IMG/VR virus record: IMGVR_UViG_3300018063_000004
Span: 1-64,000 of that record
Reading direction: 5' to 3' (one strand)
Source of the DNA: a virus
Length of the DNA: 64,000 nt
The notes under the pieces were generated by a model. That model was not told the DNA's origin. It was given only the letters and a program-made list of their open reading frames with translations, and did not search any database. The position numbers and the translations under genes are program-made. This document shows positions 6,212-42,960 of this stretch, in pieces (position 1 is the first letter of the stretch; the number at the start of each line of letters is the position of its first letter).

Positions 6212-8899
6212 TTACGGGACGATCGCGCCGGCGAATGGCCGGAAGTCCATGATCGCGCCGCCGTAGATTTGGCGGATCTTATACGTGAGCTGATCGTTCG
6301 AGAACATCGACCCCTGGCTCGGCAAATCCTGCACGAACAACTCCGGGGTTTCTTGGCCGTCCAGGAAGCCGATCTCGAGCATCGGCGCTTGATCGATCGA
6401 GGCCGAGACCCAATAGTTGTTCACGTCCGACCAATATTCAACTACGATCGTCGTGAGATTCAGCTTCTTGACGAAGTTCGGATCATTGTTGTTTGAGCCG
6501 AGCACGCGATCCGACGTGGTGAGCTGAAACGCCAGCTCCTCGAGTTCCGATGGCACGATCAGATAGCGCGCCGCCAGGCCGATGCGCTTCGCGTTCGACA
6601 TATCGGCTTGCTGTTTGATTCGCAGCCGGAGCGTCGAGACGTTCGCGCCCGAGAGCGCCGTGGTCACGATGTTGTTCCCGTGGCCGGCCGCGGCCAGCGC
6701 CACGCCGTCATAGATGAGCGCGTTGTTGTTCAGGAAATCCCACGCGAACTCATGCAGCGTTTGCGCGGCCGCACGCGCGAGCTTGTTCGGGACTCGGCGG
6801 ACGGCGCCGACATCGTCGTTCTTGATCATCTCAAGCGTGATCTGCTCGGTCCCGCCGCGCTTCGCCGGCGAGTAGGTCGCCTCTTCGTCCGTCGGGCTCG
6901 TCATGGACGGATACGGCCCGCCCTGCGTGACGATCGCGAGGTTCCCGTAGCCGCCGAACCGCATACGCCGCACGGTCCGGAAGTCGGAGAGTGGGACGAC
7001 CTCGGCGATGGTGCCGCGCCAATTCGCCAGGCCGCTATCCGCGTAGTCCTTGAGCATCCGGCGCGTGATGCTATCGCCGAGGATCTGATCGAAGCTCGAC
7101 GTCGTGAGCGATTCCGTCAGTCTGATTTCCGACAAGCGCCGCAGAACAGCTTCGCTGATCTTGCCGTTGACCTTTGTATCGCCCGTGATGTCAACGTAGA
7201 TTTCCTTGAAGCTCTGGAGCGGCTTCATCGGATCGAAGAAGTTGGCGAGCCGTTCCCGGACTTTGGCCGTCCCGTCCGTCACGATTTGCACGCGCGGGAG
7301 GCCGACGTGTGGCATGACGAGGTTCGCTTCGCGCAGCGCGCCCACGTCCTCGACCGCTTCCTTGATCGCGAGTGTGACCTCGTCCTCGGTCGGAAGCTGG
7401 CCTTTGCCGATTCGCTCCGTGAACTTTTTCCGCAGACGTGTTTTGAACACGTCGGGCAGCGCGCACTCGAGCAGCGATCGCTCGAGCATCATGCCGGCGA
7501 AGTTCCGAGCCCCGGACTGATTGCTCGTCTCGAGTGCCGTGATGCGCTCGAGCAGCGCGGTGCGATCGGCCGCCTCGGTGATCGTCGCGGTTGCGCCGGC
7601 AGCCGGCACGGCGGCCGCGGCAGGCACAACAGCAACGACAGGAACGACAGGTCGAGCGGCGAGCGCCTCAGTGAGCAGACGAGTCGCCGTGGCCTCGTCG
7701 CACCCTTCCGGCACGGTCACGCCGGCCTTTTTCAACGACTCGATCAAATGCTGCAACATGCGAACGTCCTCCTGAAGCTGTGGATTGGCCGCTTCGGATG
7801 CCACGAGACGGAGCACGCGCCCGCCCGCGGACGGATTCAGAACCCAATCGACCGATTCGACTTTGCGGATGGCGTTGACGTCGTAGGCCGCGCCGTCGGC
7901 GAGCTGCACGACCTGGCTCTCGGCCCGCACGTCATGTGAGAGCCCGAAAAAGTCGGGATGGCCTTCCTGGTAGGCGTCGAGTAATTCCTCCCGGAAGTGT
8001 TTCTTCGTGACAACGGCGGTGCCCGCCAGCGCCAGAAGGCTGGCGCCGCCATCGGCTTCGGTGGTGCTCGAGAGCACGACCGGCCGGATGTTTTTCGCGA
8101 AGCCCATCGCTTCAGCGCCCGAGCGGCCGAACGGCCCGGTCTCGAGCTTGTGATCGAGAAACATCCGCGCCTTGTCGTAGAGCGGCGCGGCTTCGGCCAG
8201 GACCTTCCGGTTGTAGCGGTTGCGGTTCTTGCTCATGCCTTCTTGAATGAGCAGCACGTCCCACAACTTGCCCGTTGGCGCGCTCCCGGCGGCCTCCGCC
8301 ACGGGCCCGAGGACCTCGGCCTGGATCCGGATCAGGTTGCCGGCCGCGGTGGTGATGATGGACTCGAGAAAAGCGCCCTCGCGCACGGGCGCGTATTTTT
8401 GAACGACTTCGATCGGTTCGCCCTTGAGTTCAACCGTGCCATCGATCGTCCAGGTGTAATCGATCCGCCAGAAGCCTGGCTTCCCGACGCCGATGCTTTC
8501 CTTCCGGAAGATGACGTAGTCGTCATAGGTCGCGACGGGCCAGACATAGCCCATGCGACCGTTGTCTTTGGGCAGGAAGCGTTGCCGAAGAGCATCCGAC
8601 ACGCGCGACAGGCGTTCGTCCAGCGAGAGCCCGTTCTTCGCCTCAGCCGTGCGTTGAAGGATCGCTTCGAGGATCCAACTATTCACACTCGACTCCTTGT
8701 TGCGTCGGATGAGGTCACCGATTGGATTGCCAGCACGATCGAGGACCTGCACAGAAACCATGTCGGCGGCGATGATTTCTTCGGCTTCCGCCTTCGCTTT
8801 GATCGCGCCGCAGATCCGACGCGCGCGCTCGGCCGATTTGCCCTGACTGACGTGATCGGCCACGCACGCATCAAAATCCGTGTAACCGGCAAACGGCAT
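6212..8899 (-). CDS. Prohead protease fused to major capsid protein
   Basis: 895 residues from the ATG at 8899 (MPFAGYTDFDACVADH), chosen because this opening is a recurrent start in capsid proteins of this type. A GTG at 8986 is in frame but would translate the hairpin. An N-terminal region (1-200) is followed by a serine protease-like domain (about 220-360) with NRNRYNRKVLAEAAPL, a FLDH histidine and a GLSHD serine. Next come an Ala/Pro/Val linker (about 430-460), a coiled helical segment, and a C-terminal capsid domain resembling Mu gpT (about 500-895; FAWDFLNNNALIYDG, LIVPSELEELA, WSDVNNYWV). The protease presumably cuts itself free during maturation. No Shine-Dalgarno lies in the normal window; eight Ts and GGCC precede the ATG. 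Confidence 0.8.
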   Translation of the reverse strand: MPFAGYTDFDACVADHVSQGKSAERARRICGAIKAKAEAEEIIAADMVSVQVLDRAGNPIGDLIRRNKESSVNSWILEAILQRTAEAKNGLSLDERLSRVSDALRQRFLPKDNGRMGYVWPVATYDDYVIFRKESIGVGKPGFWRIDYTWTIDGTVELKGEPIEVVQKYAPVREGAFLESIITTAAGNLIRIQAEVLGPVAEAAGSAPTGKLWDVLLIQEGMSKNRNRYNRKVLAEAAPLYDKARMFLDHKLETGPFGRSGAEAMGFAKNIRPVVLSSTTEADGGASLLALAGTAVVTKKHFREELLDAYQEGHPDFFGLSHDVRAESQVVQLADGAAYDVNAIRKVESVDWVLNPSAGGRVLRLVASEAANPQLQEDVRMLQHLIESLKKAGVTVPEGCDEATATRLLTEALAARPVVPVVAVVPAAAAVPAAGATATITEAADRTALLERITALETSNQSGARNFAGMMLERSLLECALPDVFKTRLRKKFTERIGKGQLPTEDEVTLAIKEAVEDVGALREANLVMPHVGLPRVQIVTDGTAKVRERLANFFDPMKPLQSFKEIYVDITGDTKVNGKISEAVLRRLSEIRLTESLTTSSFDQILGDSITRRMLKDYADSGLANWRGTIAEVVPLSDFRTVRRMRFGGYGNLAIVTQGGPYPSMTSPTDEEATYSPAKRGGTEQITLEMIKNDDVGAVRRVPNKLARAAAQTLHEFAWDFLNNNALIYDGVALAAAGHGNNIVTTALSGANVSTLRLRIKQQADMSNAKRIGLAARYLIVPSELEELAFQLTTSDRVLGSNNNDPNFVKKLNLTTIVVEYWSDVNNYWVSASIDQAPMLEIGFLDGQETPELFVQDLPSQGSMFSNDQLTYKIRQIYGGAIMDFRPFAGAIVP

Positions 8900-8903
8900 G
8901 GCC

Positions 8904-8966
8904 AAAAAAAAGAGCGCCCGAAGGGCGAGCTGTGAAGCTCGAGTCCTTCGGGCGCTCGGGTCCTCC
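8904..8966 (-). promoter_or_regulatory. Terminator-like hairpin leader of the capsid gene, copy B
   Basis: On the minus strand GGAGGACCC (8966-8958) is followed by a stem of GAGCGCCCGAAGG (8957-8945) and its partner (8924-8912), with an inner GAGC/GCTC stem. Eight Ts (8911-8904), GGCC and then the capsid ATG follow. It has the form of an intrinsic terminator but leaves no room for a promoter before the start codon. The outer stem and flank match copy A at 3080-3147. It may be an attenuator, a processing site, or a structure that bridges the distant GGAGGA to the start codon. Confidence 0.65.
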
Positions 8967-8997
8967 GCCGCGCCCGGCGGGATCACGATCGATCGAC

Positions 8998-9198
8998 TTA
9001 CGCGGCCGGCAGCGTGTAGCGCCCGGTCCGCATCATCTCAACCGCTTGCGGATCCTCCACGGGAAGGCCGTCGGCCTCCCACGTTTCCTCTCGCTTGACG
9101 ATCCCGATCTGGCCCTTGCGGAACTGAATATGGATCGTCCCGTAGAAGTCCCGCCGGACGCATTCGAGTAAGAACTGCACAAGACGCGCGAAATGCAC
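8998..9198 (-). CDS. Small DUF2292-like protein
   Basis: 66 residues, GTG start at 9198 with GGAG about 9 bases upstream. The core FYGTIHIQFRKGQIGIVKREE resembles small YezD/DUF2292-type proteins, short alpha-beta-beta units of unknown function found in phages and bacteria. It lies between the upstream 136-residue gene and the capsid leader hairpin. The family match is by eye and tentative. Confidence 0.5.
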   Translation of the reverse strand: MHFARLVQFLLECVRRDFYGTIHIQFRKGQIGIVKREETWEADGLPVEDPQAVEMMRTGRYTLPAA

Positions 9199-9201
9199 CC
9201 G

Positions 9202-9612
9202 CTAGACTCCGGCCAAAAAATGCACCCGCGAACACTGACACCCGAAGCCAGGATCTGGTCCGCCAGCGTCCTCTCTGAACAAAATCTCGCCGCACGCACC
9301 CGGGATGTCCTCGGTCATCAACACCTTGACTGTGACCCCAGTCGCCGCGTCGACGACCTCCCGCGGCCGCTGCCGGCGTTGCTTGCACGCCAGAATGAGC
9401 GCGAGGTCTTGTCGATCGAGTTCTTCGGCCAGGCCGACGAACATCCGACGGACTTTCTTGACGAGCACAAGGCGCCGGCGGCCGTCCCCATCCCGACCTC
9501 CTTCGGCCGCCTTGCCGTCCTCGGTGCCGCCCTCTGGGAGAGCAGCCAGGTGCGCCGGCACAATGAGACCGCTGGCACGTTCGGCGAGTTGTCCCGAGAG
9601 CGACGCGTTCAT
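9202..9612 (-). CDS. Hypothetical protein in head operon
   Basis: 136 residues; the ATG at 9612 overlaps the stop of the sigma-like gene (9609-9612). The first 60 residues are basic and low in complexity. The middle contains LAEELDRQDLALILACKQR, and the C-terminus GFGCQC could bind a metal. No family recognised. Coupling to the sigma-like gene suggests they act together. Confidence 0.5.
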   Translation of the reverse strand: MNASLSGQLAERASGLIVPAHLAALPEGGTEDGKAAEGGRDGDGRRRLVLVKKVRRMFVGLAEELDRQDLALILACKQRRQRPREVVDAATGVTVKVLMTEDIPGACGEILFREDAGGPDPGFGCQCSRVHFLAGV

Positions 9613-10121
9613 GTCACACGAGGATCGCGAATGAGATACGCGCGCAACCGTTGCCGGGCCCTCGAGAGCGCCCGTCGGTCGGTTGCGTCATGTGCTACAT
9701 AGACCGTGCCGAGCCCCAAACTGTGACAGATCAACGTTTTGTCATGGGATTTCAACCGGTTCAGCGCGTCCGTGAAGGCCTCGTGCCGACGTGCGTTTCG
9801 GAGATGTTCGTCTGGATCGACCACGGCCTCATGGGGATTCGTGAAGGCCGCCAGGCGGTCGCGCGTGCGCTCAAATCGGGCGCGGTCCGCGTGCGTATCT
9901 CGAGCGACAGACACCGTCACGCGGTAGATCCAGGTGCGAATGGCGCCCGGATCCCGAAGGCCGTTCATGCTCTGACAGAGCCGGAGGCCGACCTCGGCGA
10001 CGACGTCGGGCGCTTCATCGTGCCCAACCTCCTGCACGGCAACGGCTTCCACGAAGCCGCGGTGCTGCGCGAACACGTCGCCGATGCGTTTGCGATCGGC
10101 TTCATTCAATCGCACGCGCAT
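9609..10121 (-). CDS. ECF-type sigma factor-like protein
   Basis: 170 residues, ATG at 10121. Residues 10-75 match the layout of sigma region 2 (DVFAQHRGFVEAVA, then VVAEVGLRLCQS, and RTWIYRVTVSVARD in the position of region 2.4). After a variable linker, residues 118-165 look like region 4 (ALNRLKSHDKTLICHSLGLGTVYVAHD, ending ALSRARQRLRAYL). The recognition-helix segment is degenerate, so promoter specificity may be altered. It lies upstream of the capsid gene and could direct or modulate late transcription. Whether it binds RNA polymerase is an inference. Confidence 0.6.
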   Translation of the reverse strand: MRVRLNEADRKRIGDVFAQHRGFVEAVAVQEVGHDEAPDVVAEVGLRLCQSMNGLRDPGAIRTWIYRVTVSVARDTHADRARFERTRDRLAAFTNPHEAVVDPDEHLRNARRHEAFTDALNRLKSHDKTLICHSLGLGTVYVAHDATDRRALSRARQRLRAYLIRDPRVT

Positions 10122-10936: not shown

Positions 10937-11173
10937 ATGGCCGTGACGATCCAGAATGGCAACGATCAGGCGACGTTCGATAACAGCCGATGGACCTCGG
11001 CCGATCCCCGGCTCGAGGCGTTCCTGAACAGCATCATTCCGATCGATCGGATCTCGCCCTCGGTCGGCCGGCCTGATGTGTTTGTCGCCAGGGACGCGAT
11101 CGCGCGTCTCGGCGATGGCGCAAAGATCGTCACGGTCAGCACAGAGACACTCCCTCCGGACGCCATACCCTAA
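10937..11173 (+). CDS. Small plus-strand protein convergent with MuF
   Basis: 78 residues; ATG at 10937 preceded by CCGAGG. The sequence is well folded-looking (RLEAFLNSIIPIDRISPSVG, then VFVARDAIARLGDGAKIV). It is one of few plus-strand genes, divergent from 10817 and overlapping the end of the MuF gene tail-to-tail by 4 bases. The 119-base gap 10818-10936 would hold its promoter, but I see no clear -10/-35. Possibly a moron. Function unknown. Confidence 0.55.
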   Translation: MAVTIQNGNDQATFDNSRWTSADPRLEAFLNSIIPIDRISPSVGRPDVFVARDAIARLGDGAKIVTVSTETLPPDAIP

Positions 11174-13125
11174 CGGAACTTCCCGCGCAGTAGCTCGAAG
11201 ATGAAATCGAAATACTCCGGATCCGCTTTGGCGAGCGCCGCCGGATCCGCAAAGAAATATTCGATGCCCATCGAGACGATCTCCGTAGCCTGCAGACCGT
11301 AGTCCTTGCCCATATAGGGATCGAGGAACTTATCCTTCCGCGCGCGCTCGTGCGGTTCATAGCCGTAGCCTGGCTTGAGCGTCGACAACGGCGTGAGCGC
11401 CTCGCCCTTCGTGCGCGCCTCGAGGAACCGGAACGCCGCGGCCTTCACGTCCGGCGCGTTGAACTCGAGGATATGCCCGATCTCATGCGCGATCGTTCTG
11501 GCGGTTTCGTTCATGTTCAGATTGATCGAATTGTTTTGCTGCCTCGCGAATGCCCTCGAGACGAACGTGCCGGACCCATCCCGCGCGCGATCGACGACGA
11601 TTGAGCTGATCGTGCCGTGGCCAACGAGCTTTCCGACTTCCTCAAGCGTTTGACGGATCCGCTTTGTGACTTCAGCGCCGTTAATTGGCCGGAACCGGAT
11701 CGTTCGTTTATTGAATGCCTGATCAGTGCCAAACTCGGCGCCGGGCGCGATGTGAAATTCGATCGTCCGCCGGTCTGTAACCGGAACGGCCAGGCGCCGA
11801 CGAAGCGCCCTGGTTTCTGCGTCAAGGTTCGCCTTGAGCTGTCGCTGGAGCCGGTTCATTTCTCCGAGGAATCGATCCACGTCCTCAGCCGCGGCGATAT
11901 AGCGTGGATCGGCACGAATCACTTCATCGGCGAGCTTCTCGAGGCGCGTGTTGGCCGCCAGCCATTCGTGTTGCGCGCGTAGATGACTGTCCGCCAGGTT
12001 GCGGCGTTGCTGATCAAACCGATCGGCGACCTTCGTGAGCGAGTGACGCACGTCGGCCGCTGACCGCGGCGGCCGCGGTGGCCGCGGCGCCGGCCTCGGC
12101 ACGACGGGCGGTTCCCCCACCACAGCGGGCGACGGTTCTGGGGTGACACGGCTCCTCGAGGTCGAGAACGCCCGGAGTTCGTCCAGGTTGAAATCGACGA
12201 AGGCTCCACAGCGGCACATAATTGTTGCCCCCGCGGCCAGCCGGCCCGCCGGCGTCGCGTCTGGATCTATTGGAAAACGCAAGAGCGCCACACCGAGCAG
12301 CTTCGGCGGTTTGCCTGGCGCTTCGCTGTGAACATTGATCCGGAACCGATCACGCACCGGGATCCCGTGCCCGCGCGCGTAGGTCTGCGCGGCCTCCAGA
12401 TGCCCCTGACGCACCCGCGCATCTCGAGCGGAACGCCAGCCCTTGCGGAGAAAGGGGAACTGATTCGCCAGGCCGAGCAAGCGATCGAAGGTGGATTCGT
12501 TCAGCACGCGACCAAGTTCCGTTCGCACCATTCGCTCGGCCTTGAATTCGGCCGCATCGAAGCCCGCGTCCCCGATGTTCGCGGCGAGCTTCCGGAGTTC
12601 ATCGAAACTGGCCTCGCCAGCGATCGCCGCACGCCGCACGCCCTGGACGAGCTGATTCCGGAACCGTTGCATGGGTTCGGAGAGCAGATCGGCCGTCAAG
12701 TCAAACGCGCGTGTGGCCAGCGCGCGATCGAGCTGCGGCGCCCGGCTGAGTGCCACGCGCGCTGCCCGAAGCGGTTCATCCGCGCTCGAAGCTCCGAGGT
12801 CCTGTGCCTGGCCGAAGGCAGCCTTGGTGCCCGCGAGGAGATCGGCTTGCGCTTCGGCAATCAAGCGATCGATATCAAGGATCAGACTCGAGGCCGTGAA
12901 GCGTCGGAACTGGGAGGCCCCGGCGGAGGCGAGCACGCCCTGCAGCTCGCGCTTGAGTTGCTGAAGGCGAGCCAGTAGTCGCTGGACGACGTCGCGCTCG
13001 AGCCCGAGCGCGGACCGTTGGACCTCACGTCCAGCCGAGGCGCCGGCTGCCGCCCGCCTGGCCGGCGAGTTCGGATCAGAGGCCTCATAGGCCGGCGCGA
13101 GCGCCAGGTTGCCCCGTGTCAACAT
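11170..13125 (-). CDS. MuF-type minor head protein with C-terminal metallopeptidase-like domain
   Basis: 651 residues, ATG at 13125. Residues about 100-330 carry the MuF (SPP1 gp7) pattern: ERMVRTELGRVLNES, then GWRSARDARVRQGHL and a Cys pair in GATIMCRCGAFVDF. A Pro/Arg-rich hinge (about 345-370) and a coiled helical section follow. The C-terminal domain (about 450-651) contains HEIGH at 547-551 followed by a downstream ATEIVSMGIEYFF glutamate, the arrangement of a zincin. MuF proteins enter the head and can be ejected with DNA. A fused protease-like tail resembles MuF polymorphic toxins. The substrate is unknown. Confidence 0.75.
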   Translation of the reverse strand: MLTRGNLALAPAYEASDPNSPARRAAAGASAGREVQRSALGLERDVVQRLLARLQQLKRELQGVLASAGASQFRRFTASSLILDIDRLIAEAQADLLAGTKAAFGQAQDLGASSADEPLRAARVALSRAPQLDRALATRAFDLTADLLSEPMQRFRNQLVQGVRRAAIAGEASFDELRKLAANIGDAGFDAAEFKAERMVRTELGRVLNESTFDRLLGLANQFPFLRKGWRSARDARVRQGHLEAAQTYARGHGIPVRDRFRINVHSEAPGKPPKLLGVALLRFPIDPDATPAGRLAAGATIMCRCGAFVDFNLDELRAFSTSRSRVTPEPSPAVVGEPPVVPRPAPRPPRPPRSAADVRHSLTKVADRFDQQRRNLADSHLRAQHEWLAANTRLEKLADEVIRADPRYIAAAEDVDRFLGEMNRLQRQLKANLDAETRALRRRLAVPVTDRRTIEFHIAPGAEFGTDQAFNKRTIRFRPINGAEVTKRIRQTLEEVGKLVGHGTISSIVVDRARDGSGTFVSRAFARQQNNSINLNMNETARTIAHEIGHILEFNAPDVKAAAFRFLEARTKGEALTPLSTLKPGYGYEPHERARKDKFLDPYMGKDYGLQATEIVSMGIEYFFADPAALAKADPEYFDFIFELLRGKFR

Positions 13126-13159
13126 AGGTCTTGAATATCGCGCGCGAGCGCGGTCGATT

Positions 13160-13528
13160 TCATAGCTCTCCCAGGAGAACGATGATGTCGTCGTCCGCTT
13201 TCAGGCTCGCACGACCGCGCACCGGGATCCGTGTGCTCTCGAGCACCACGCCTTCGTCGAGCAGCCAGCCCTGGAAGGCTTCCACCCGCACGCGGATCGG
13301 CACAATCATCGCGAACAGTTCGAGCGCCTCGCCGACGAGCGCGGCCGTGTGGCTGTGAATGCGACGCCGGACCAGCTCACTTGAGAGCGTGACGGCGTCG
13401 GTGTCGAGCTGGCCGAGGAACCGATGGATCGTGAACCGAACACGCGCGATCGGACGCCTGAACAGATCGCCGGCGCTCTGACCGGCTGAGACGACGACTT
13501 CCCACAGCGAACGGAGCCCGAGTAGCAC
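13160..13528 (-). CDS. Hypothetical protein between secreted paralogue and MuF
   Basis: 122 residues with a GTG start at 13528 and GGAGA 5 bases upstream. The sequence is amphipathic without a signal peptide (VRFTIHRFLGQLDTDAV, ELFAMIVPIRVRVEAF) and ends in an acidic strand (KADDDIIVLLGEL). No family recognised. It is co-transcribed with the exported paralogues upstream and MuF downstream. Confidence 0.5.
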   Translation of the reverse strand: MLLGLRSLWEVVVSAGQSAGDLFRRPIARVRFTIHRFLGQLDTDAVTLSSELVRRRIHSHTAALVGEALELFAMIVPIRVRVEAFQGWLLDEGVVLESTRIPVRGRASLKADDDIIVLLGEL

Positions 13529-13539
13529 TATGTCTCCGT

Positions 13540-14127
13540 TCAGATGATCGTCAATTCGATACGCACCGTCGTTAGGCCCACAGGCGCCAGTGCCGTCGTT
13601 TTGACCATGACGCCTTGGCCTTCTCGCAACACGATCGGTTGACCGCCGCTGTTCTGAAACTCGTAACAGGGTGGCGGGTTCATAATCGCCCGCGCTTCTT
13701 CCAGATCCGTCGCACAGCCGCCTACGTCAAAGGTCACCACGGGATCGGTCGTGCAGGTATGGGACGACGTGATCTGCGCGGGAACGGCCGGGTTTTGCGA
13801 ATCCAGCGGCTGGATCGTGATCGCCGTGCAGGTCGTGCCGACCGTAGACGTGACCGAGTAGGTGAAGTGCGCCGCGATGCCAGTGACTGTGGCCGTATTC
13901 GCCGGGCTGATATAAATCCCGACAATGCGGACGATTCGCCCAGACCCACTGTCGTTGAACAGATTTAAATAGTCTTTCGACGCCGCCGCCGTCGCGCTGA
14001 TGATCGTCGTGTTGTAGGTAGGCGCTTGACTCGGGTAGGTCGCTTGACTCTGGCCAGGCTGAACGCCCTGGGCCACCAGAGCAGCCATGCACACAACGAG
14101 CGCGATCATCCGTTGGAGTCTCGTCAT
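13540..14127 (-). CDS. Exported beta-rich protein, paralogue 1
   Basis: 195 residues; the ATG at 14127 overlaps the stop of paralogue 2 as ATGA. A basic start followed by MIALVVCMAALVAQGV looks like a signal peptide. The mature part is rich in Thr, Val and Ser and has four to five Cys. It shares with the next gene (14124-14711) the same length and order of motifs: FN.SGSGRIVRIVGI, LDSQNPAV, a VGGC with following acidic residues, and QPIVLREGQGVM. The two are clearly duplicates. Export of a protein encoded in the head module is unusual; surface or periplasmic action is inferred. Confidence 0.65.
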   Translation of the reverse strand: MTRLQRMIALVVCMAALVAQGVQPGQSQATYPSQAPTYNTTIISATAAASKDYLNLFNDSGSGRIVRIVGIYISPANTATVTGIAAHFTYSVTSTVGTTCTAITIQPLDSQNPAVPAQITSSHTCTTDPVVTFDVGGCATDLEEARAIMNPPPCYEFQNSGGQPIVLREGQGVMVKTTALAPVGLTTVRIELTII

Positions 14128-14711
14128 CGAATCTCCACCATCATCGTCTTCCGCACGAATCCTGATTCAGAAGAAAACAAGTTGTGCAACATGGCCCCTT
14201 CACCAGGTCGAAGAATAATCGGCGTTTGTCCTTTGACTTTGTAGTCAAAACACCAAAAGGGCGGGGCCTTTGTCGCAGATTCTTCATTCAACAGGCTGCA
14301 CCCGCCATAGCGAAAGACCTGTGTTGGGTTCGCGGTGACGCAGTTGCCTCTGCTAAACGTCACCCCGGTCACGCTCGGATTTGTCGAATCAAGCGCGTTG
14401 ACTGGAAGCGTGACGCAATCCACTCCGGCAGTGGAAATGTGCGTCAGGGTGTAGACCACCTGGACGCCAGCATTCACGCCAGTCGGCTGCGTCGCCATGT
14501 GAATCCCTAAGAGGCGCACGACCTTTCCGGAACCAGCCGTGTTGAAGATGATCAGGCAGGGAAGGACGGGACAGCCGACCGTAGACGTAAAGGTGTAGGT
14601 AAACGCCTGCTGCCGCGACCAGTCCGGCGTCAGTTGACCGCGCGCAGGCCGGACCAGGGCGATCCCGAGTCCGACGATGACCAGCGCCGTCGTGAATCGC
14701 GTCCAGGTCAT
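14124..14711 (-). CDS. Exported beta-rich protein, paralogue 2
   Basis: 195 residues, ATG at 14711, overlapping its neighbours as ATGA on both sides. The N-terminus MTWTRFTTALVIVGLGIALV ending ARGQ is a signal peptide with a plausible cleavage before Gln. Mature-region landmarks shared with paralogue 1 are FNTAGSGKVVRLLGI, ALDSTNPSV, GGCSLLNEE and TPIILRPGEGAML. Six Cys residues fall in the exported part, so disulfides are possible. No known family. Its fold may be that of a virion decoration protein adapted for export. Confidence 0.65.
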   Translation of the reverse strand: MTWTRFTTALVIVGLGIALVRPARGQLTPDWSRQQAFTYTFTSTVGCPVLPCLIIFNTAGSGKVVRLLGIHMATQPTGVNAGVQVVYTLTHISTAGVDCVTLPVNALDSTNPSVTGVTFSRGNCVTANPTQVFRYGGCSLLNEESATKAPPFWCFDYKVKGQTPIILRPGEGAMLHNLFSSESGFVRKTMMVEIR

Positions 14712-15367
14712 TGCTTCCCCTTGAATGCGTAGTTGATGACTGACGCGGCACCAGCCTGCACGCGGATCCCGCCGGTGAAGATTTTCCCGTTCGGGTGCCA
14801 TTCGATCTGCGAGTTCGGCGGCACGAAAATGCTGTTCACGTAGGTGAACGGCGTGCCGGCATTGTCCTTGATGATCACGGTCGTCGTCTGCGTGCCGATG
14901 TTCGTCACGAACATCCAGTCCAGGCACGTCGCCGTGGCCGTGACCACCGTATCGGTCGAGGGCATCGCCGCGTTCGTCTCAAAGTTCGTGGACCCACAGC
15001 CGGATGGATCGCCGCCGGCTCCCGACAGCACTTCCACTTTGAAGCCCCCCGCCGCACCCAACGCCGTCGGTAGGGGCACGACTGTGCCGCCGGAAAAGAG
15101 TTCCGACGCCAGATTGAAATTCGTAGCCGTTTGCTTAAGTTGTTGCCCTTGCGATCCGAAGACGACACCCAACAGCCGCGCCCCCCGATCCGACACATCG
15201 CGCGGATCGATGTGCGCCCCGCCAAAGACGATCTTGAACGGCCAGGCGTTCGCGTCCGATGTCGTCGCCGCTTCGCCTTGACCGACGACTTGCGCGTGAG
15301 CGGCTGCGGCGAGCAAGAAGAAGAGTCCGAGCACGATTGCGACCATTCGATAAATCGCGTTCATCAT
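14708..15367 (-). CDS. Exported virion-like protein
   Basis: 219 residues from the ATG at 15367, which overlaps the preceding stop. The signal peptide MVAIVLGLFFLLAAAAHAQ has an AHA-Q cleavage site. The mature part is beta-rich. Near the C-terminus PFTYVNSIFVPPNSQIEW and IFTGGIRVQAGA resemble strands of phage head or tail surface proteins that normally lack a signal. It is the first of three consecutive exported products. Function unknown; a role at the cell surface during infection or lysogeny is inference. Confidence 0.65.
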   Translation of the reverse strand: MMNAIYRMVAIVLGLFFLLAAAAHAQVVGQGEAATTSDANAWPFKIVFGGAHIDPRDVSDRGARLLGVVFGSQGQQLKQTATNFNLASELFSGGTVVPLPTALGAAGGFKVEVLSGAGGDPSGCGSTNFETNAAMPSTDTVVTATATCLDWMFVTNIGTQTTTVIIKDNAGTPFTYVNSIFVPPNSQIEWHPNGKIFTGGIRVQAGAASVINYAFKGKQ

Positions 15368-16288: not shown

Positions 16289-18091
16289 CTACAACTCCTT
16301 GACATTCTCGGAGCCAATAATCTGGCCGTTGCTATCCCTCACGACCTTTCTCGGCGGCGACGTGAGATCGACATTCACGCGAGCGCCCTCCACGGTGACG
16401 GCCGCCGGCGCGACGTTGACGGTAATCGGCGCCGCCTGTGCCGACCGCCGGTCAGCGAGACGGCCCCCGAGGTCCTCAAGCTGCCGACTGATGGTCTCGA
16501 GCCTGCCGTGGCCGTTCCCGCCATGGGGTTCCAGCCGCTCCGCCTCCTCCCGCTGCGCGTCCTCATCCGGATCCGGCCGGCCGAAGGGGGGATTCGTCGG
16601 CCGCCCAGGCCGAGCGGCCGCGGCCGCGGCCATGGCTGCTTGCATCTCGTCCGCGCGCCCCTGGCGTTCTGCGGCGTCCGCGTCCGCCTCGTCCATGACG
16701 TCTTGCGCTTTGAAATCGAAGCCCGATCCGAGATGTTTCGTGAGCGCCAGCGTGATGATGGACGCGACACGCCGGCTGATCGTCTTGTTGTTCATGGCCG
16801 TATCCATCGCGGCGACGATCTGCGAGAGTGCGCTGCCCACGCGCGAAATGTCCTTCGCCGCAATCTCCGGCATGTTCACGCTGAATACGTCGGTCGTCAG
16901 ATGGCGGAACAAGATCGGATTCAACCCGCGCTGTTGCTCGATCCCGAAGCGGAGGATCTGAGTCAGAAACCCGCCGAACTCCTTCTGCCGCGCCGCCGGC
17001 GTTTTCATGGCCACGTCGTTCTGTCCTTCGATGGTTGCGCGGTTGCTGTCCTGCCAGCCGAACCAGGCGATCGGCATGCCGAGCGAGCCGGCAATATGGA
17101 TGGTCAAGAGGCGCGCGGTTTCTGATCGGTCCGTCGCGTTCAAGGCGGGCGAGAGTGCGGTGAGCTTCTCGTGCTGATTGCGGCCGAACACCGAGCCGGC
17201 TGATGGCGTGCCGATCTCGGCCATGCGCTCGGCGATCTGCACTTTCGTGGCGTCCTTGATCTCGAGATCCCACACGAAGGCGGAGAGCAACCGGACGCGC
17301 TCCACCTCCGCAAACATATATTGATCGAAGAGATCCAGCCAATCGGCCAACGGGAGGTAGTCCGAGCGCCCGCGGCTCGAGTTCGGCAGATTGTTGATCG
17401 CGAAGTAAAAACACTCGCCCTCGAGGCGGCCGGTCAGCGGATTCTCCTGGATGATCGTGATCCGCCGCGACTCGGCCTCATGCGGTTGTCGTTTGAGCCG
17501 GACGAACTCTGGGACGAGGACGTTATCCGGGCGCGTCTCGACTTCCTCAATCTGATAGGGATCGATGAACCCGATCGTCGGCACACCCGTCACGTCGTTG
17601 ACCGCCACGGGCAGGACCAGTTCGCCGTTCAACATCAGCGCATTCGAGAGCTTGCGCGCGCGTTCGCCGAGCCGATTGATGGGATGGTTCCAGACCTTGC
17701 CGACCGCCTCCGCGATCTTCGGGTCTTGCGCGTCAAAGCTGAGGCCTTCGCCCACGACCAGGTCGGTCTGAGCGGTGATCAGGCGGCGCGCGAAGGGATT
17801 CGTTTCGTAGAGAAACCAGGCGATTTCCAGCATCCGATCTTGTTGCATGGGCTGGAGATCGCGCTTTTTGAACTTCGTCCCGCTCGAGAGCCGGCGGAAT
17901 TGATAGTCGTCGCTATCGATCATGCCGGCGATGGGTGAGAGCGTGAGCGCCTCGGCGCGCCTGGCGGCCGCGGCCTCTGACGCCTCCGACCGCCGGAGCG
18001 GCAGATCGAGGAACGGTTCCTCCACGGTGGCCACCGCGGTGACGAAGATGGGCGGATGCATAAACGCGCGGACGCGATCGCGAAAGCTCAT
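16289..18091 (-). CDS. Portal protein
   Basis: 600 residues, ATG at 18091 overlapping the HTH gene stop (ATGA). The portal core is visible: PMQQDRMLEIAWFLYETNPFARRLI near residue 80, then IAEAVGKVWNHPIN, and AGSLGMPIAWFGWQDSNRATIEGQ (about 350), which is characteristic of portal proteins that contact the DNA channel. The C-terminal 100 residues are rich in Ala, Arg, Pro and Glu and probably extended. It is followed by head genes and preceded by the terminase, the usual packaging order. It forms the dodecameric DNA entry ring. Confidence 0.85.
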   Translation of the reverse strand: MSFRDRVRAFMHPPIFVTAVATVEEPFLDLPLRRSEASEAAAARRAEALTLSPIAGMIDSDDYQFRRLSSGTKFKKRDLQPMQQDRMLEIAWFLYETNPFARRLITAQTDLVVGEGLSFDAQDPKIAEAVGKVWNHPINRLGERARKLSNALMLNGELVLPVAVNDVTGVPTIGFIDPYQIEEVETRPDNVLVPEFVRLKRQPHEAESRRITIIQENPLTGRLEGECFYFAINNLPNSSRGRSDYLPLADWLDLFDQYMFAEVERVRLLSAFVWDLEIKDATKVQIAERMAEIGTPSAGSVFGRNQHEKLTALSPALNATDRSETARLLTIHIAGSLGMPIAWFGWQDSNRATIEGQNDVAMKTPAARQKEFGGFLTQILRFGIEQQRGLNPILFRHLTTDVFSVNMPEIAAKDISRVGSALSQIVAAMDTAMNNKTISRRVASIITLALTKHLGSGFDFKAQDVMDEADADAAERQGRADEMQAAMAAAAAARPGRPTNPPFGRPDPDEDAQREEAERLEPHGGNGHGRLETISRQLEDLGGRLADRRSAQAAPITVNVAPAAVTVEGARVNVDLTSPPRKVVRDSNGQIIGSENVKEL

Positions 18092-18451: not shown

Positions 18452-20026
18452 CTATCGCCGGCGATTACCGAAGATGAATCCGGACAGCCGTCGATAGTTC
18501 TGATCCGCACGTGGCGCCGGCGCCGGCGGCGCAAACGATCCGACGGCCAGCGTGGCGCCCGTCGATGCGTGATACGCAATCACAACGGCGTGCGCGCGAT
18601 CTGGTGAGGCCTTCAGCCCCTTCGGCATATCGGCCGCGGCAATACTCGGATCATCCGGATCCTTGATCGCGAGCTGGCCCTTCGGCATGTGCCGCGTCCG
18701 GAGGTTCGAGAGCTGGCCCTTCAGGCGATCGTCGTCGCAGAGCCCGAACGTCCCGACCTCGCCGCGCTCCCGAGCCCGGAAGTTGTCCTCGAGCGCCATG
18801 CGGAACTTCCAGCAGAGCCAGGCTTTGTTATTCTGGAAATGTTCCTTCCGATCGTCGGTATCGAGCGCGGACTTCGATCCAAAAATCACGGGCATCGTCG
18901 GGATCTGGTGCAGTTTCATGAGCATATCGGTCACGCCGCCGCCGAGGCCTGTGTCATCCACGCCGATCGTTTGCGCGCCGAGCGCCTCGCCCTCATACAA
19001 ATCGACGAGCCGCTGCGTGGTCGTGACCAGGTCCGTCTTCGTCCACGTTTTGATCCAATCGATCCGCGTGCTCGAGCCGAAGGCCGTGGCCGTTTCGTCC
19101 ACACCGAAGCGCGCCACGTCGCACCCGAGGACCTTGCGCGAGGCGTGCTTGATCGCCGGCTCGAGCGTCTCGTGCTCGCACTCGCCCTCGAGCTTGCCGC
19201 ACGTCGCGCAGCGTTGCGCCTGGCCGGCCAGCTCGGCGGCGAGGATCCAATCGAGCCGGATCAGAATGTCATCGCCTTCGTTCGGGAACTCGCCGAGGAC
19301 TTTTGCCTGGTAGATCGGCGACGTGACGCCCCATTCCTCGGCTTTTTGCGCCAGCCACTTCCGATCGACGCGCGGCGCATCCTCGCCGTTGATATGAATC
19401 TGCCGAAAGAACTTCGCGATGCGGCCGAAATGTGATTCATAGAACTTGCCCTGGCGGGATCCCGGCGTCGACGTATAGAGCCGCTGGCCGCCGGTGGTGA
19501 GCGCGCCATCGATGGCGTCATAGATCGGATTCGACACGCCCTTCGCTTCGTCCACAATGAACAACACGAACGGCGCGTGGAAGCCTTCCATGTTTTGCGG
19601 CTTGTTCGACGCGATCCCGATCGCGTGCCAATCGGCTTCATGGCCGCGCACGCTCATTTTCGTTTTCGAGAGCACGAGATGCTCCTTGAGGCGAAAGCCT
19701 TGATGCCATTTCGCGATCTCGGCCCACAGAATGTCTTTGACCTGGCGGAGCGTCGGCGCCGTCGTCGGCACTTTCGAAAACGGCCGCGTCAGGAGATACC
19801 AATAGACAATGAAGGCATCGACGGTCGTTTTCCCCACGCCGTGTCCGCTCCGGACCGTGACGTCGTCGCCCGCGGCGATCCCCTCCATGATCGCCGCCTG
19901 ATAGTCCTCGAGTTCGACCGGTTGGCCGTTCTTGTCGCGGAAGAGATCGTGGACAAACGCCCGCGGATTCGCGTGATAGCTCTTCCACTTGGCGACCGCA
20001 AAGTCGCGGACCTCCGCCGTCAACAT
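18452..20026 (-). CDS. terL: Terminase large subunit
   Basis: 524 residues, ATG at 20026. ATPase: Walker A SGHGVGKT at residues 60-67, Walker B VLFIVDEA near 154-161, then a coupling motif around STPGS. Nuclease: a first acidic residue in GCDVARFG (D303) and a second Asp in IGVDDTGLGG. A CxxC..C cluster (CATCGKLEGECEH, about 273-285) lies between the two domains. The enzyme pumps DNA into the prohead through the portal and cuts it. The small subunit is not adjacent; the best candidate lies at 25696-26265. Confidence 0.92.
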   Translation of the reverse strand: MLTAEVRDFAVAKWKSYHANPRAFVHDLFRDKNGQPVELEDYQAAIMEGIAAGDDVTVRSGHGVGKTTVDAFIVYWYLLTRPFSKVPTTAPTLRQVKDILWAEIAKWHQGFRLKEHLVLSKTKMSVRGHEADWHAIGIASNKPQNMEGFHAPFVLFIVDEAKGVSNPIYDAIDGALTTGGQRLYTSTPGSRQGKFYESHFGRIAKFFRQIHINGEDAPRVDRKWLAQKAEEWGVTSPIYQAKVLGEFPNEGDDILIRLDWILAAELAGQAQRCATCGKLEGECEHETLEPAIKHASRKVLGCDVARFGVDETATAFGSSTRIDWIKTWTKTDLVTTTQRLVDLYEGEALGAQTIGVDDTGLGGGVTDMLMKLHQIPTMPVIFGSKSALDTDDRKEHFQNNKAWLCWKFRMALEDNFRARERGEVGTFGLCDDDRLKGQLSNLRTRHMPKGQLAIKDPDDPSIAAADMPKGLKASPDRAHAVVIAYHASTGATLAVGSFAPPAPAPRADQNYRRLSGFIFGNRRR

Positions 20027-29252: not shown

Positions 29253-29506
29253 GCGCGGGCCTCGGCCAGCCGACGATCGAGATAGCTCCGCACGTCGCCG
29301 ACCGTGTAGAGCGTCCATCCTTCGATCTCTTGATCCGAAATCTCGATCCCGAATTCCGCTTCGAGCGCCATCCCGATTTCGACCATATCGAGTGAATCCG
29401 CGCCGAGGTCCTCGACGAGCGTCGCCGTCGCCGTGAGCGCATCAGCTTCCACGCCGAGCGCATCGATCAAGACTCTCCGAATGCCCGCCTCGCGATCGAT
29501 CGTCAT
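29249..29506 (-). CDS. Acyl carrier protein
   Basis: 85 residues, ATG at 29506 overlapping the methyltransferase stop (ATGA). The 4'-phosphopantetheine site is intact: GADSLDMVE with Ser at residue 38, preceded by LVEDLG and followed by EFGIEISDQE. The protein is acidic with helices in the ACP order. Acyl carrier proteins shuttle fatty-acyl groups on a Ser-linked pantetheine. No partner synthase or acyltransferase is visible in the window, so the substrate would come from the host. Its place between a ParB-methyltransferase and a beta-barrel-like gene gives no clear pathway. Confidence 0.85.
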   Translation of the reverse strand: MTIDREAGIRRVLIDALGVEADALTATATLVEDLGADSLDMVEIGMALEAEFGIEISDQEIEGWTLYTVGDVRSYLDRRLAEARA

Positions 29507-30858
29507 CGTCGCACCGCCTTTCTCGGCCGCTCATGCGGCCGGATTCGCCGGGCCCCATGCACATGTGTAGAGGTCTGGCCTTGTCCTTCTTCGAGTTTGT
29601 CGGCTTGCTTCCCGGTGAACGTTTGCCAGCGTTCGACGCACACTTGCGCGAAATAGGGCGATAGCTCCATCGCGTAACACGTCCGGCCAACCTGTTCACA
29701 CGCGATGATCGTGGAGCCGGAGCCAGCAAACGGATCGGCGACAATTCGCGCCATGCCGGTCACGTCGAGGATCGTTTTGAGTAGCTCGACTGGTTTCTCC
29801 GTCGGGTGATGTTCGTTCCCCGATCGATCGCATCGGACGACGTTCCCCTTCGCTTCCTTGTGGGTGAATGGCGCCTTGACGCGCGTGCCGCACGCGACCA
29901 GCTCATGTTGTGAGCGCCAGCCGATCCCCATGCCCGGTGTGCCTTTGTCCCAGACCACCATCGCGCGAATCCCGTAACCCTGGCTCTCCATGAGGTCGGT
30001 GAGGTTCGTCCACATCCGCCAGTCGGTGAAGATGTAGGCGAGTTTCGCGTTCCAGGTATCGAGGACCGACTTGATCAGCTCTTTATAGCCGCGCGTGCTG
30101 AGCACGTCATTCGCGATCGAGACCGTCTGGCCCGTGAAGTCTTTTTTTGTGGTCCCGATCGATCCCTGAATCCGGTCCGCTTCCTGGAACCCGCCGGAGC
30201 AATAGGGCGGATCGGTCAGCAGCGCGTCGATCTTTTCCCCTTGCGTGAGGAGTCGCACATCGAATCGTTGCGTGGAATTACCGCAGAGTAATCGATGGTT
30301 GCCGAGGCCGAACAGATCGCCGACCTTCACCCACGGGTCGATCGGCATCGGCGGCGCCATGGCGCTGCCTCGCTGTGTTTCGAGATTCGCGATCAAGTCT
30401 TGGACGTCGTTGGAATCGAACCCGACGCCGGCGAGGCCTGCGGCCGTGCCCTGAAGCGAGACCAGCACGTCCTTCAGGATCGGATCGATGAACCCGCCGG
30501 CAATCACGGCCTGATTACTCGCGACGAGATAGGCCTCGTGCTCGCCGTCATCCTGGAACGCGACGCCCCGCACGACTGGAATCATCCACTCGCCATCCTC
30601 GCGCACTTGAATGTGCTCGGGCGCCTCTTCGCTGGAGAGTTTCATGGCGTTGAGTGTTTTGAGGCGGCCGTGGCCCGCGGCCAGGCGCCCGGATCGTTCG
30701 TCCACGAGGATCGGCTCCACGAACCCGAACCGCTTGAAGCTCGAGTTCAGGAGGCCGAGATCGTGATCCTTCGGATTGCGAGGCCATTCCAACACATCGG
30801 CGAGCGGCCAATATTCGATCTGGAGCGCCTCGCCCGTTGCCGGCCGTTTATTGCTCAC
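29503..30858 (-). CDS. ParB-like domain fused to DNA N-methyltransferase
   Basis: 451 residues with a GTG start at 30858 that overlaps the upstream stop by 11 bases. The N-terminal 100 residues form a ParB/Spo0J-like nuclease domain (EYWPLADVLEWPRNPKDHD, RLAAGHGRL). The C-terminal part is a D12/N6 type methyltransferase with DPPYC at residues 216-220, then a WDKGTPGMGIGWRS target part, HPTEKP, and DPFAGSGST (about 388-396). Motifs appear intact. It may protect phage DNA from host restriction or regulate its own promoter. The ParB part may bind a DNA target. Confidence 0.85.
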   Translation of the reverse strand: MSNKRPATGEALQIEYWPLADVLEWPRNPKDHDLGLLNSSFKRFGFVEPILVDERSGRLAAGHGRLKTLNAMKLSSEEAPEHIQVREDGEWMIPVVRGVAFQDDGEHEAYLVASNQAVIAGGFIDPILKDVLVSLQGTAAGLAGVGFDSNDVQDLIANLETQRGSAMAPPMPIDPWVKVGDLFGLGNHRLLCGNSTQRFDVRLLTQGEKIDALLTDPPYCSGGFQEADRIQGSIGTTKKDFTGQTVSIANDVLSTRGYKELIKSVLDTWNAKLAYIFTDWRMWTNLTDLMESQGYGIRAMVVWDKGTPGMGIGWRSQHELVACGTRVKAPFTHKEAKGNVVRCDRSGNEHHPTEKPVELLKTILDVTGMARIVADPFAGSGSTIIACEQVGRTCYAMELSPYFAQVCVERWQTFTGKQADKLEEGQGQTSTHVHGARRIRPHERPRKAVRR

Positions 30859-31048
30859 GGATGCGCCCTTCGACCACTTCAGCACCCGTCGCTTCGACCA
30901 GCCGAGCGCGGTGAACGACATCGCCAGGGCAGAGCCAGACGATCATCGATCCCGTGCGGAAGCGTTGCCAGCCCGCAGCGAATGCGAGATCGACGGTCTC
31001 GAATATTTCTTCCTTCAAACAATGCCAGCAGCGTGTTCCAATCGTCAT
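30848..31048 (-). CDS. Small Cys-containing protein
   Basis: 66 residues, ATG at 31048 with GGAGG upstream. RCWHCLKEEIFETVDLAFAA has a CxxC and a helix. The rest is strand-rich with one more Cys. Likely a small zinc-binding accessory protein. Confidence 0.5.
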   Translation of the reverse strand: MTIGTRCWHCLKEEIFETVDLAFAAGWQRFRTGSMIVWLCPGDVVHRARLVEATGAEVVEGRIREQ

Positions 31049-31088: not shown

Positions 31089-31439
31089 TCACGATCCCTC
31101 CCGTTGAAGTTGGCCGCACGCCGGCCAGAAGGCGCGCCAATCGCTGCCTTCATACCCGTTCACGTTGTAGAGTTCGCACTTCAGAAATGTCTTGCCGTGG
31201 AGGACCTGGCCGGCCCGTTCCGCTGATCGTTGCGACATGCCCCCATGCGCGGCCTTGCGAATCAGGTGCGCGCATTCCTTACACGTGACGCCTTCGGGCC
31301 CATGTCCATGTTTGGCGTGCATCGATCCGAGGCGACGGAGCTGGCCCTGGCGATCCGCCTCGGTGCGTTTCGAGACCTTGCCCGGGAGAAACCGGATCAA
31401 GGATCCGCCGGTCTCGAACAGGCGCGGCTCGTCGCTCAT
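31089..31439 (-). CDS. Hypothetical Cys-containing protein
   Basis: 116 residues; the ATG at 31439 overlaps the HerA-like stop. A central GVTCKECAHLIRK and a later KTFLKCELYN suggest a metal site. The first 30 residues are polar. A conserved-looking phage protein without an assigned role. Confidence 0.5.
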   Translation of the reverse strand: MSDEPRLFETGGSLIRFLPGKVSKRTEADRQGQLRRLGSMHAKHGHGPEGVTCKECAHLIRKAAHGGMSQRSAERAGQVLHGKTFLKCELYNVNGYEGSDWRAFWPACGQLQREGS

Positions 31440-33415
31440 TGGAAAAACGTCTCGGCCGCGCGAAGGCCGCCGCCGCCACTATCTTCAAGCCAGCCGAGCT
31501 TGAGAAACTTCGCAATCGCCGTAGACGTGTCGCCGCTCTGTTTGTAACCGGCGTCCTCATGCGCTTGCTTGCGGCCAACGACATGCGGATAGGCGTTGAA
31601 CCAGACGCCGAGAAGCCGACGTTCAGCTTTGTTGAGTTTGCCGGCGCCATCCAGGAGATGTTCCCGGAGCGCGGCGCCGGTCGGTAACGGCTCATACGGC
31701 CCGAGCACGTCGAGGCCAACTGCGGAGATCGCCAGAGTGAACCCGCCGCTGAGCACGATCCAGCCACACTCCAGCATGGCGGCGATCGCCGTGGACGTGT
31801 CGCCACTCGGTTGATAACCGGCCAGGATCAAGAGCTGCGTCCGCGTGAGCCCCTTGCCGTGTTGTGCGAGCGCCGTGAGCATCGCTCGCGCGTGGCGCTT
31901 CAAGTCCCCACTGCGACTGTAGACCGCCGCGCCACCTTCGCTGGCCTCTCGAGGAACACTCGGCCGCGGCGCCGACGGCGGCGGAGGTACTGGTGCAACA
32001 TCACGCTTCATCGGCGGACCAGGCCGGCGAAGAAACGGCGCGCCAGGCTCGGCGATCGCCGGCGTCGGCACGTGTGCGAGCGCCCGCTTGACGCTGGCGC
32101 GATCGAGGACCGTCTCAATCGTCTTGCGTGCTCGATCAGTTTCGGCCGTGATGTTCGTGTTGATTTCCTGTAGGCTGCCGTGAACCGCGTTCTGCGTGCT
32201 GACGAGCACGTTCTGTGTGCCGGCAAGTAGATCAACCAAATTTTGATGAAATAACATCCGGACTTCCTCGATTCGGATCGTGAAGTCTTTAAGGACTTCA
32301 CGATCGCGATCGGTCAAGGCCGGCGCCGGCGGCTTCGCTTTCTGTTGTGAGACGCCGAGTTCGAGGTGTGCCGCGTGAATCTGAAGATCGGCGTGTTGTT
32401 TTTCAAGCTGCGCGATCCGCTTACTGGCGAGTGTGCGTTCTTGCTCGAGCTGCGCACGAAGCTTCCGTGGATCGGAGGCCTCGGCCTTTTGAATCGTGTC
32501 GGCCATCCGAGCCCGGTAATGATCGAGGTCCGGCTTTTTCGCGCGGCCAGCCAGGCGTTGTTCGGTGCCTGTCGGCGTTTTTGAGCTGTCAAAGGTCTGA
32601 CGGAGGCGGATGCTGGCGACGCCTTCGTAGTGCAGCCAGCCCGGCGAGACGACAAGCGCCTGACCGCGCGGCAGTTTCCGGAGCTGTTCGATCAGTGCCT
32701 TCCAGCGGCCTTTCTCGACATGTTCGCCGAACCAGTCCAAGATCGCCTCGACCGAGTTTGGGCCGATCGTCCGAAAGGCAATCATCAGCTCGGCCAGCTC
32801 GGACACGCTTTTCGCCATCCGCGCCGATCGCTGCGTGATCAATGTGACGCCGACACCGACGTTCCGGCCCTCTTCCACCAGGACCTCGAGCGCGCCGAGG
32901 CAACGCGCCTGGTCGACGGCGCCGTGCGGAATCGTTTGTGGCGCGAACCTGGCCGCCTCGTCGATCAGTTGCATGAGCGGCCGCCGGCGTTCGCCCTGGC
33001 GTTCCATGAGACGCGCCAGGTAATCGGCCACGAATCGGATTTTCTCGCCGATACTCCATCGGCGGCCGTCGGCCCGGGAGCTGATATCCACCAGGACATT
33101 CTCGGATTCATCGACGACAAAGTCGGCCACGACCGCGCCCGCCGTCGGCTCGATCGGCAGATCGCCGTGCCGGCCGCCGAGAATCAAAATCTTGAGGCCT
33201 TCGCCCTTGCCGTCCGCCGAATGCCGGAGGCCCCATGACACGCCGACGGGATCAAGGAGCGCGAACCGGAAGCCGGCCGCGGCGAGTTCCTCGCAGAGCA
33301 CGGCCGCCAGATTCGTCTTCCCCATGCCCTTGCCGCCGTAGACGACGATCGTCTGCGTCACGGCCTCGAGCGCCGGCGGTGTGATTTCCGCGGAGAGTTG
33401 GAGTCGCTTCGCCAT
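31436..33415 (-). CDS. HerA/FtsK-like ATPase with duplicated winged-helix-like end
   Basis: 659 residues, ATG at 33415. Walker A GGKGMGKT at 27-34 and Walker B LMQLIDEAARF near 150. GALEVLVEEGRNVGVGVTLITQRSA fits the HerA helicase fold. A coiled stretch with EKQHADLQIHAAHLELG follows (about 335-400). The last 160 residues are a tandem pair sharing QSGDTSTAIA (first copy PSGDTSTAIA), probably two winged-helix units. HerA-type ATPases pump or remodel DNA, often with a nuclease. Near the SbcC-like ATPase and a Cas4/RecB-like nuclease, a role in replication or recombination is likely. Confidence 0.75.
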   Translation of the reverse strand: MAKRLQLSAEITPPALEAVTQTIVVYGGKGMGKTNLAAVLCEELAAAGFRFALLDPVGVSWGLRHSADGKGEGLKILILGGRHGDLPIEPTAGAVVADFVVDESENVLVDISSRADGRRWSIGEKIRFVADYLARLMERQGERRRPLMQLIDEAARFAPQTIPHGAVDQARCLGALEVLVEEGRNVGVGVTLITQRSARMAKSVSELAELMIAFRTIGPNSVEAILDWFGEHVEKGRWKALIEQLRKLPRGQALVVSPGWLHYEGVASIRLRQTFDSSKTPTGTEQRLAGRAKKPDLDHYRARMADTIQKAEASDPRKLRAQLEQERTLASKRIAQLEKQHADLQIHAAHLELGVSQQKAKPPAPALTDRDREVLKDFTIRIEEVRMLFHQNLVDLLAGTQNVLVSTQNAVHGSLQEINTNITAETDRARKTIETVLDRASVKRALAHVPTPAIAEPGAPFLRRPGPPMKRDVAPVPPPPSAPRPSVPREASEGGAAVYSRSGDLKRHARAMLTALAQHGKGLTRTQLLILAGYQPSGDTSTAIAAMLECGWIVLSGGFTLAISAVGLDVLGPYEPLPTGAALREHLLDGAGKLNKAERRLLGVWFNAYPHVVGRKQAHEDAGYKQSGDTSTAIAKFLKLGWLEDSGGGGLRAAETFFQ

Positions 33416-41856: not shown

Positions 41857-42960
41857 ATGGGCGTTTTTACTCGCCACGATTCGCCGTTCTACTGGATCTG
41901 GCTCGAGCGGCCTGGCCGCAAGGGCAAATCCGAAAGCACGAAAGTGCCGATCGGCGCGCCCACGCCAGGCCAGCGTCGCGATCAGCGGTTCCTCGCCGCG
42001 CAAATCTATCGCGCGCGCATGACGGACCTCGCGCGGCAACGCCATCGGATCCAGGCCGGCGAGCGCGTGACGATCGGCTTTACCGCCTACGCCGAGTGGT
42101 ATCAGGCACACTTTACGGTCCACAAGCGCACGGCCGCGCGCGAACGGTCCGCGATCAAGAACCTCATCGCGCACTTTAAGCCCTACGATCTCGACGAGAT
42201 CGATAAGGGGACCGTCATCGAATGGCGCACCTTCCGGAAGCGCCACGTCAAGGCCTCGACGGTCAACCGTGAGCTGGACGTGCTGAAGCACATGCTCAAG
42301 GAGGCCGTCCCGACCTATCTCGACCACTCGCCGATCGCCGGCCTCAATCGACTACGCTCCGCGAAGGCCGCGATCCGCATTTTCACGACCGAGGAGGAAG
42401 TGCGATTTTTCGCCGCGACGAAGGACCTCGAGGAAGCGGCGATCATGTTGATTGCGCGGGACACGCTCATGCGGTTGTCAGACGTGAAGAGTCTGCAATG
42501 GGCGAACTGCCGCGGCGACTACATCATGGTCATCGATCCAAAAATCGAGGCCTATACCGCGCCGGTCTCGCCACGGCTGCGCGAAGTCCTCGAGGCGCTC
42601 CCGCGGCGCGGCCGGTTCCTCTTCCCGAGCCGGCAGTCCGGCCCCGGCTCGCTGTCGGCGAACACCGTCCATCGGTTGTTTGTGGAGATTTGTCAGCGGG
42701 CAGAGATCCCGCAAGGACGGAAACGCAATGGCGTGACGTTTCATTCGCTCCGCCACACGGGGACGACGCGCGCGCTCGAGCGCGCGGTGCCCGTCCGCGG
42801 CGTGCAAGCGGCCGGCGGCTGGCAGAGCATCAAACAGCTCGAGCGATACGGTCACGTGACTGATGAGAACGTGCGCCTGTTTCGTGAGCGCATCGGCCAG
42901 GGCGACGATCTGACGCAGATTCTGCGCGATCGGATTGACGGCAAGACCTCGATTCACTGA
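41857..42960 (+). CDS. int: Tyrosine recombinase (integrase)
   Basis: 367 residues, ATG at 41857 with GGAGG about 12 bases upstream. The N-terminal 70 residues include a basic arm-binding-like part; a core-binding helical domain (about 70-165) contains FTAYAEWYQAHF. Catalytic residues: Arg in DTLMRLSDV (R206), His-x-x-Arg in HSLRH (H296, R299), a Trp in GGWQS in the place of the usual His (W322), and the nucleophile in LERYGH (Y331). It mediates integration and excision. The candidate attP lies immediately downstream. Confidence 0.88.
   Translation: MGVFTRHDSPFYWIWLERPGRKGKSESTKVPIGAPTPGQRRDQRFLAAQIYRARMTDLARQRHRIQAGERVTIGFTAYAEWYQAHFTVHKRTAARERSAIKNLIAHFKPYDLDEIDKGTVIEWRTFRKRHVKASTVNRELDVLKHMLKEAVPTYLDHSPIAGLNRLRSAKAAIRIFTTEEEVRFFAATKDLEEAAIMLIARDTLMRLSDVKSLQWANCRGDYIMVIDPKIEAYTAPVSPRLREVLEALPRRGRFLFPSRQSGPGSLSANTVHRLFVEICQRAEIPQGRKRNGVTFHSLRHTGTTRALERAVPVRGVQAAGGWQSIKQLERYGHVTDENVRLFRERIGQGDDLTQILRDRIDGKTSIH

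Follow-up and report, generated by a model that had tools for sequence, protein, structure and literature searches.

The window, which is the whole 64 kb stretch of DNA that was analysed, was taken from a 64.4 kb IMG/VR virus record and, as read from its genes, is that of a temperate tailed phage with nearly every gene on the minus strand (Table 1). The interval between the portal and MuF genes was found to contain six genes, namely g146, g159, A, B, C and g122. The sequence-only reading had placed three adjacent genes at 13540-15367 within the head module, and the open reading frames of A, B and C were found at exactly these positions, in the virion module with portal on one side and MuF on the other. 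The stop of A and the start of B, as well as the stop of B and the start of C, were found to overlap by 4 bp (ATGA), and a Shine-Dalgarno-like sequence was present upstream of all three open reading frames.

Table 1. Positions of the genes of the portal-MuF block and of other features in the window.
Feature	Position	Strand	Description
MCP-protease fusion	6212-8986
MuF	11170-13125
g122, 122 aa	13160-13528	-	open reading frame between C and MuF; no signal; absent from L003 too
C, 195 aa	13540-14127	-	signal peptide; C-type domain; 4 Cys in mature part, the conserved four; paralog of B
B, 195 aa	14124-14711	-	probable signal peptide; C-type domain; 6 Cys in mature part, 4 conserved; paralog of C
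A, 219 aa	14708-15367	-	signal peptide (MMNAIYRMVAIVLGLFFLLAAAAHA, then Q); fibre stretch at residues 57-96; 2 Cys in mature part
g159, 159 aa	15364-15843	-	signal-less neighbour; N-terminus PDSTGKK...
g146, 146 aa	15848-16288	-	signal-less, adjoins portal; virion-protein-like by eye only
Portal	16289-18091		phrog_10963, E 2e-37
TerL	18452-20026
Integrase	41857-42960	+
Y	49730-50185	-	small signal-bearing protein, near lysis genes; 2 Cys in mature part
Holin	50505-51230		away from the A/B/C block
Endolysin	52986-53513		away from the A/B/C block
X	54076-54507	-	small signal-bearing protein, downstream of the gene of a 1397-aa (tail-region) protein; 2 Cys in mature part
Tape-measure-like protein	59978-63958

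The head module was also found to contain a gene for a sigma-factor-like protein between MuF and MCP (9609-10121, minus strand; phrog_1740, E 1e-5), and a similar-looking gene was present at the same place in a related phage (L003, 8697-9212). Elsewhere on the minus strand, a single protein was found to contain a ParB-like domain together with a DNA methyltransferase (29503-30921), and a second terminase-large-subunit match (phrog_2666, E 7e-13) was found in the replication region at 31436-33415, far from TerL.

Sec signals were called with a simple rule-based test made for this analysis. The test recognised 10 of the 12 well-known E. coli signal sequences on which it was checked, and 0.7% of the internal protein segments of the phage passed it. 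Seven of the 65 called genes of the window passed the rule, namely A, B, C, X, Y, a gene at 51276-52913 and the replication initiator at 34151, and the last of these is likely a false positive. A run of three passing genes has a probability of about 0.07 at the overall rate of 7/65, a rate that includes A, B and C, and an estimated probability of about 2e-5 at the 0.7% background, and shuffled N-termini of A, B and C passed the rule in 1-3% of the trials. The n-, h- and c-regions followed by a signal peptidase site were present in all three proteins, clear in A and C and weaker in B, which was the least certain with two Arg residues after its hydrophobic stretch. Signal peptides on consecutive genes between MuF and portal had been proposed earlier and were recovered by the rule, as were those of X and Y, which had been named as further exported candidates. 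No homolog of X was found by tblastn against 50,697 phage records, nor of X or Y in the searches made, and a likeness of Y to L086 6808-7164 was rejected as no alignment was obtained. The protein at 51276-52913 (545 aa, minus strand, beside the lysis genes) was found to contain a CarboxypepD_reg-like N-terminal match (below cut-off), followed by a body that is glycosidase-like by eye, so that an enzyme is apparently exported as well.

B and C were found to be 32% identical over 157 aa (84 bits) with four Cys in common, and the 195-residue pair are therefore true paralogs of the same length, as had been read from their motifs. A scan of viral contigs with C was found to recover a 519-aa protein with its own signal (L084; 51% identity), whose gene is separated from that of an internal virion protein by two small genes. 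A scan with C and the L084 sequence as a pair was found to recover a 671-aa fibre-like protein with a classic signal (L086; 58% identity), encoded upstream of the terminase large subunit. Two unrelated phages thus carry the C domain at the C-terminal end of a longer, signal-bearing protein of fibre-like type. Contigs of two archaeal MAGs were found to contain the domain in proteins with no signal (29-36% identity), namely a 282-aa protein encoded between portal and MCP in a Thaumarchaeota MAG (L088) and a protein of another archaeal MAG (L097/L099; 36% to C, 86 bits; 199 aa in L097), the gene of which adjoins a weak tail-protein match. These contigs may be archaeal proviruses or misbinned phage contigs. 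A third signal-less match, in L102, was weak (E 0.003). The search for the pair in other phages, suggested beforehand, therefore met the C domain in other viruses (L084, L086, L088, L097/L099); the single queries C and A found matches in viral contigs, and scans of the same contigs with B alone or with the B and C alignment gave none.

The N-terminus of the L097 protein (PDSSGKR...) was found to be identical to that of g159 at 15 of 31 positions, and the segment that precedes the C domain in L097 is therefore a separate signal-less gene in the window. The g159 protein is a possible virion anchor, a role that is itself putative and suggested by this match. The anchor-like N-terminus was missing from A, B and C, and a signal peptide was present in its place.

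The segment of A at residues 57-96 (VSDRGARLLGVVFGSQGQQLKQTATNFNL...) was found to recur with 75-80% identity in long proteins of fibre-like type from six viral contigs, and two more relatives matched at 73% over residues 45-97; none of these proteins was found to contain a signal. The A-related protein of L100/L101 (550 aa) is encoded between portal and scaffold/MCP, and the fibre-like signal-less protein of L102 contained 575 aa; the label 'fibre' refers here to repetitive sequence and gene position, with no family match. A likeness of A to a 134-aa protein of L086 was set aside as the match covered 16 residues only. The virion-type ancestry that had been suspected is supported by the fibre stretch in A and by the fibre-like proteins in which the C domain occurs.

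The Cys counts in the mature parts of the five exported candidates were all even (Table 1). The four aligned Cys were found to be conserved in all of the signal-bearing C-domain members, which are only four in number, whereas the same positions of the two alignable signal-less members were occupied by G/P/A/I and G/P/A/V, with Cys in none. When both families were pooled, the signal-bearing proteins contained 28 Cys in 1692 mature residues and the signal-less proteins 4 in 3808 (Fisher p 3.5e-11), a figure to be read as a strong trend and not as an exact probability because the sequences are related and few. Such co-variation is the pattern expected from disulfide bonding outside the cytoplasm, and it speaks for genuine export, with oxidative folding, of the signal-bearing members. 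Export, which had been asserted outright, is a prediction supported by the signal peptides and by the Cys residues that co-vary with them across homologs.

No match for A, B or C was found in Pfam or PHROGs or by tblastn against the 50,697 phage records. The three proteins had no Pfam match to the BACON domain, no match to the lysis families of Pfam and PHROGs, and no Sec/SAR endolysin or spanin architecture. A search of solved structures by profile gave chance antibody hits only. Two AlphaFold models (pLDDT 51 and 58) were of low confidence, beta-sandwich or jelly-roll-like in shape and too poor for use, and their Foldseek hits were set aside for high rmsd. The open-licence papers searched were found to contain no description of signal-bearing fibre-like proteins as a class, and no system matching the block was found in these papers or in the libraries, in keeping with what had been supposed.

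The nearest phages (L003/L004; portal 71%, MCP 64%) were found to contain none of the six block genes, with portal running directly into MuF, and the block is therefore accessory and not essential. In other MCP relatives, portal and MuF were separated by anything between no gap and about 3.7 kb; the gap of L061 contained a signal-less repetitive protein of 751 aa. Another MCP relative, L015, was found to contain a signal-bearing 155-aa protein (2244-2711) immediately upstream of MuF that is by eye unlike A, B and C.

Signal-bearing proteins that are fibre-like, or that lie in the head module with no known lysis-gene match, were found to recur in environmental phages. The complete phage genome MW202554 (L089) contained a signal-bearing 846-aa protein directly after portal, followed by a signal-bearing Laminin_G_3/concanavalin-like lectin (8806-9597) in the head module. 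Signal-bearing proteins of 142-158 aa were present directly after MCP in L069 (12284-12760), L076 (12247-12714) and L073 (9968-10396), which are a group of MCP relatives, and L069 contained a further signal-bearing protein of 658 aa (13128-15104) in the head module. A likeness of the three post-MCP proteins to the 137-aa post-MCP protein of the window was rejected by profile comparison, and a signal-bearing gene after MCP in L009 was probably a start-site artefact and was left out of the count.

The signal-less fibre-like proteins of viruses (L100/L101, L102, L088 and L097) resemble the window proteins in a homologous stretch (A) or domain (C) and in their placement among portal, scaffold, MCP or tail genes, but they lack a signal peptide, contain nearly no Cys and are longer or carry an extra N-terminal segment. 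The proteins of L086, L084 and MW202554 share the signal peptide, the Cys pairs and the position beside virion genes, and those of L086 and L084 also the C domain; they are large multi-domain proteins, whereas A, B and C are small and separate, and their annotation, if any, is that of a repeat-domain protein only. Sim of P1 is a superinfection exclusion protein of a phage that is Sec-exported with a cleaved signal and is not known to be a fibre domain; its likeness to A, B and C lies in the Sec-type export. In crAss-like phages, ORFs with BACON and T9SS-sorting domains were found beside the head section, their function being left open by the authors (PMC6949934). They are alike in that exported-type domains are encoded beside head genes and unlike in that they belong to Bacteroidetes phages with T9SS, and the remark on them is the nearest to a signal-bearing head-module class in the papers searched (PMC6949934).

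A reading that stands at about even chances is that A, B and C are fibre- or decoration-type virion domains placed behind Sec signals, which would be exported, oxidised and freed at lysis. In its favour are the signal calls, the C domain in the long signal-bearing proteins of L084 and L086, the Cys that follow the signal, the kinship of A with signal-less fibre-like proteins and the signal-bearing fibre-like proteins in other head modules; against it stand the small number of signal-bearing C-domain members, the simplicity of the signal rule, the Arg residues in B, the missing anchor segment and the absence of the block from the nearest phages. The three proteins would be expressed from the structural operon and would cross the inner membrane via Sec, with presumed cleavage of the signal, followed by the formation of disulfides; the even Cys counts are compatible with one pair in A and with two conserved pairs in each of B and C. 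The oxidised proteins would accumulate outside the cytoplasm and be released by lysis, and would then attach to released virions as a post-lysis decoration and not act on the envelope, which is the least certain step. We infer the processing, the disulfides and the location from sequence, and the word 'periplasm' for this location assumes a diderm host. Release at lysis followed by virion attachment is favoured because the domains are of fibre-type origin and were kept in the virion operon. Attachment is not evident because the L097-type anchor segment is missing, which fits action in the envelope equally well.

Such envelope action, in which the exported fibre domains would remain in the periplasm or at the cell surface and there hide or alter surface glycans or the receptor of the phage, so that other phages are excluded or progeny are kept off cell debris, is somewhat unlikely. 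It is consistent with the export signals on A, B and C and with the loss of the anchor segment, and it has a precedent in Llp of T5, a phage-encoded lipoprotein that contains a disulfide, lies in the periplasm and blocks FhuA (PMC9586334). Llp and the Cor-type proteins are however small lipoproteins, and superinfection exclusion proteins are usually made early (PMC9586334), whereas A, B and C contain no lipobox cysteine, are larger than Llp and are encoded in the structural operon. Moreover, the phage's own tail proteins were found to contain no copy of the C domain that would suggest shared receptor binding.

Soluble adhesins or decoys, freed at lysis to bind glycans, debris or other cells and not joining virions, are a distinctly improbable account. 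The fibre-type domains with no evident anchor would suit it, as would the signal-bearing lectin that adjoins the 846-aa protein of MW202554 and the exported glycosidase-like protein of the same phage as A, B and C, but the three genes lie in the head operon and not near the lysis genes. That the N-termini are no signals, and that what looks like a signal peptide in A, B and C is a hydrophobic tail buried in an ordinary virion protein, is very improbable. The signal-less homologs in comparable gene positions and the rule-based nature of the predictor point that way; against it stand the three consecutive genes that pass at a 0.7% background, the signals on unrelated homologs and the Cys pattern that follows the signal.

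By the usual account, the virions of tailed phages are completed inside the cytoplasm. A more general and tentative proposal, which is rather doubtful, is that in some tailed phages a set of fibres is Sec-exported, folded in the periplasm, locked by disulfides and joined to finished virions only after lysis, as a two-compartment assembly of the virion; the signal-bearing fibre-like genes seen in several unrelated uncultured phages would be the trace left by such a pathway. If fibre-like proteins with Sec signals and disulfide-type Cys do form a recurrent class in head gene modules, then phages either complete their virions outside the cytoplasm or coat the dying cell with adhesins of their own, and either outcome would change the annotation of structural genes in environmental phages.
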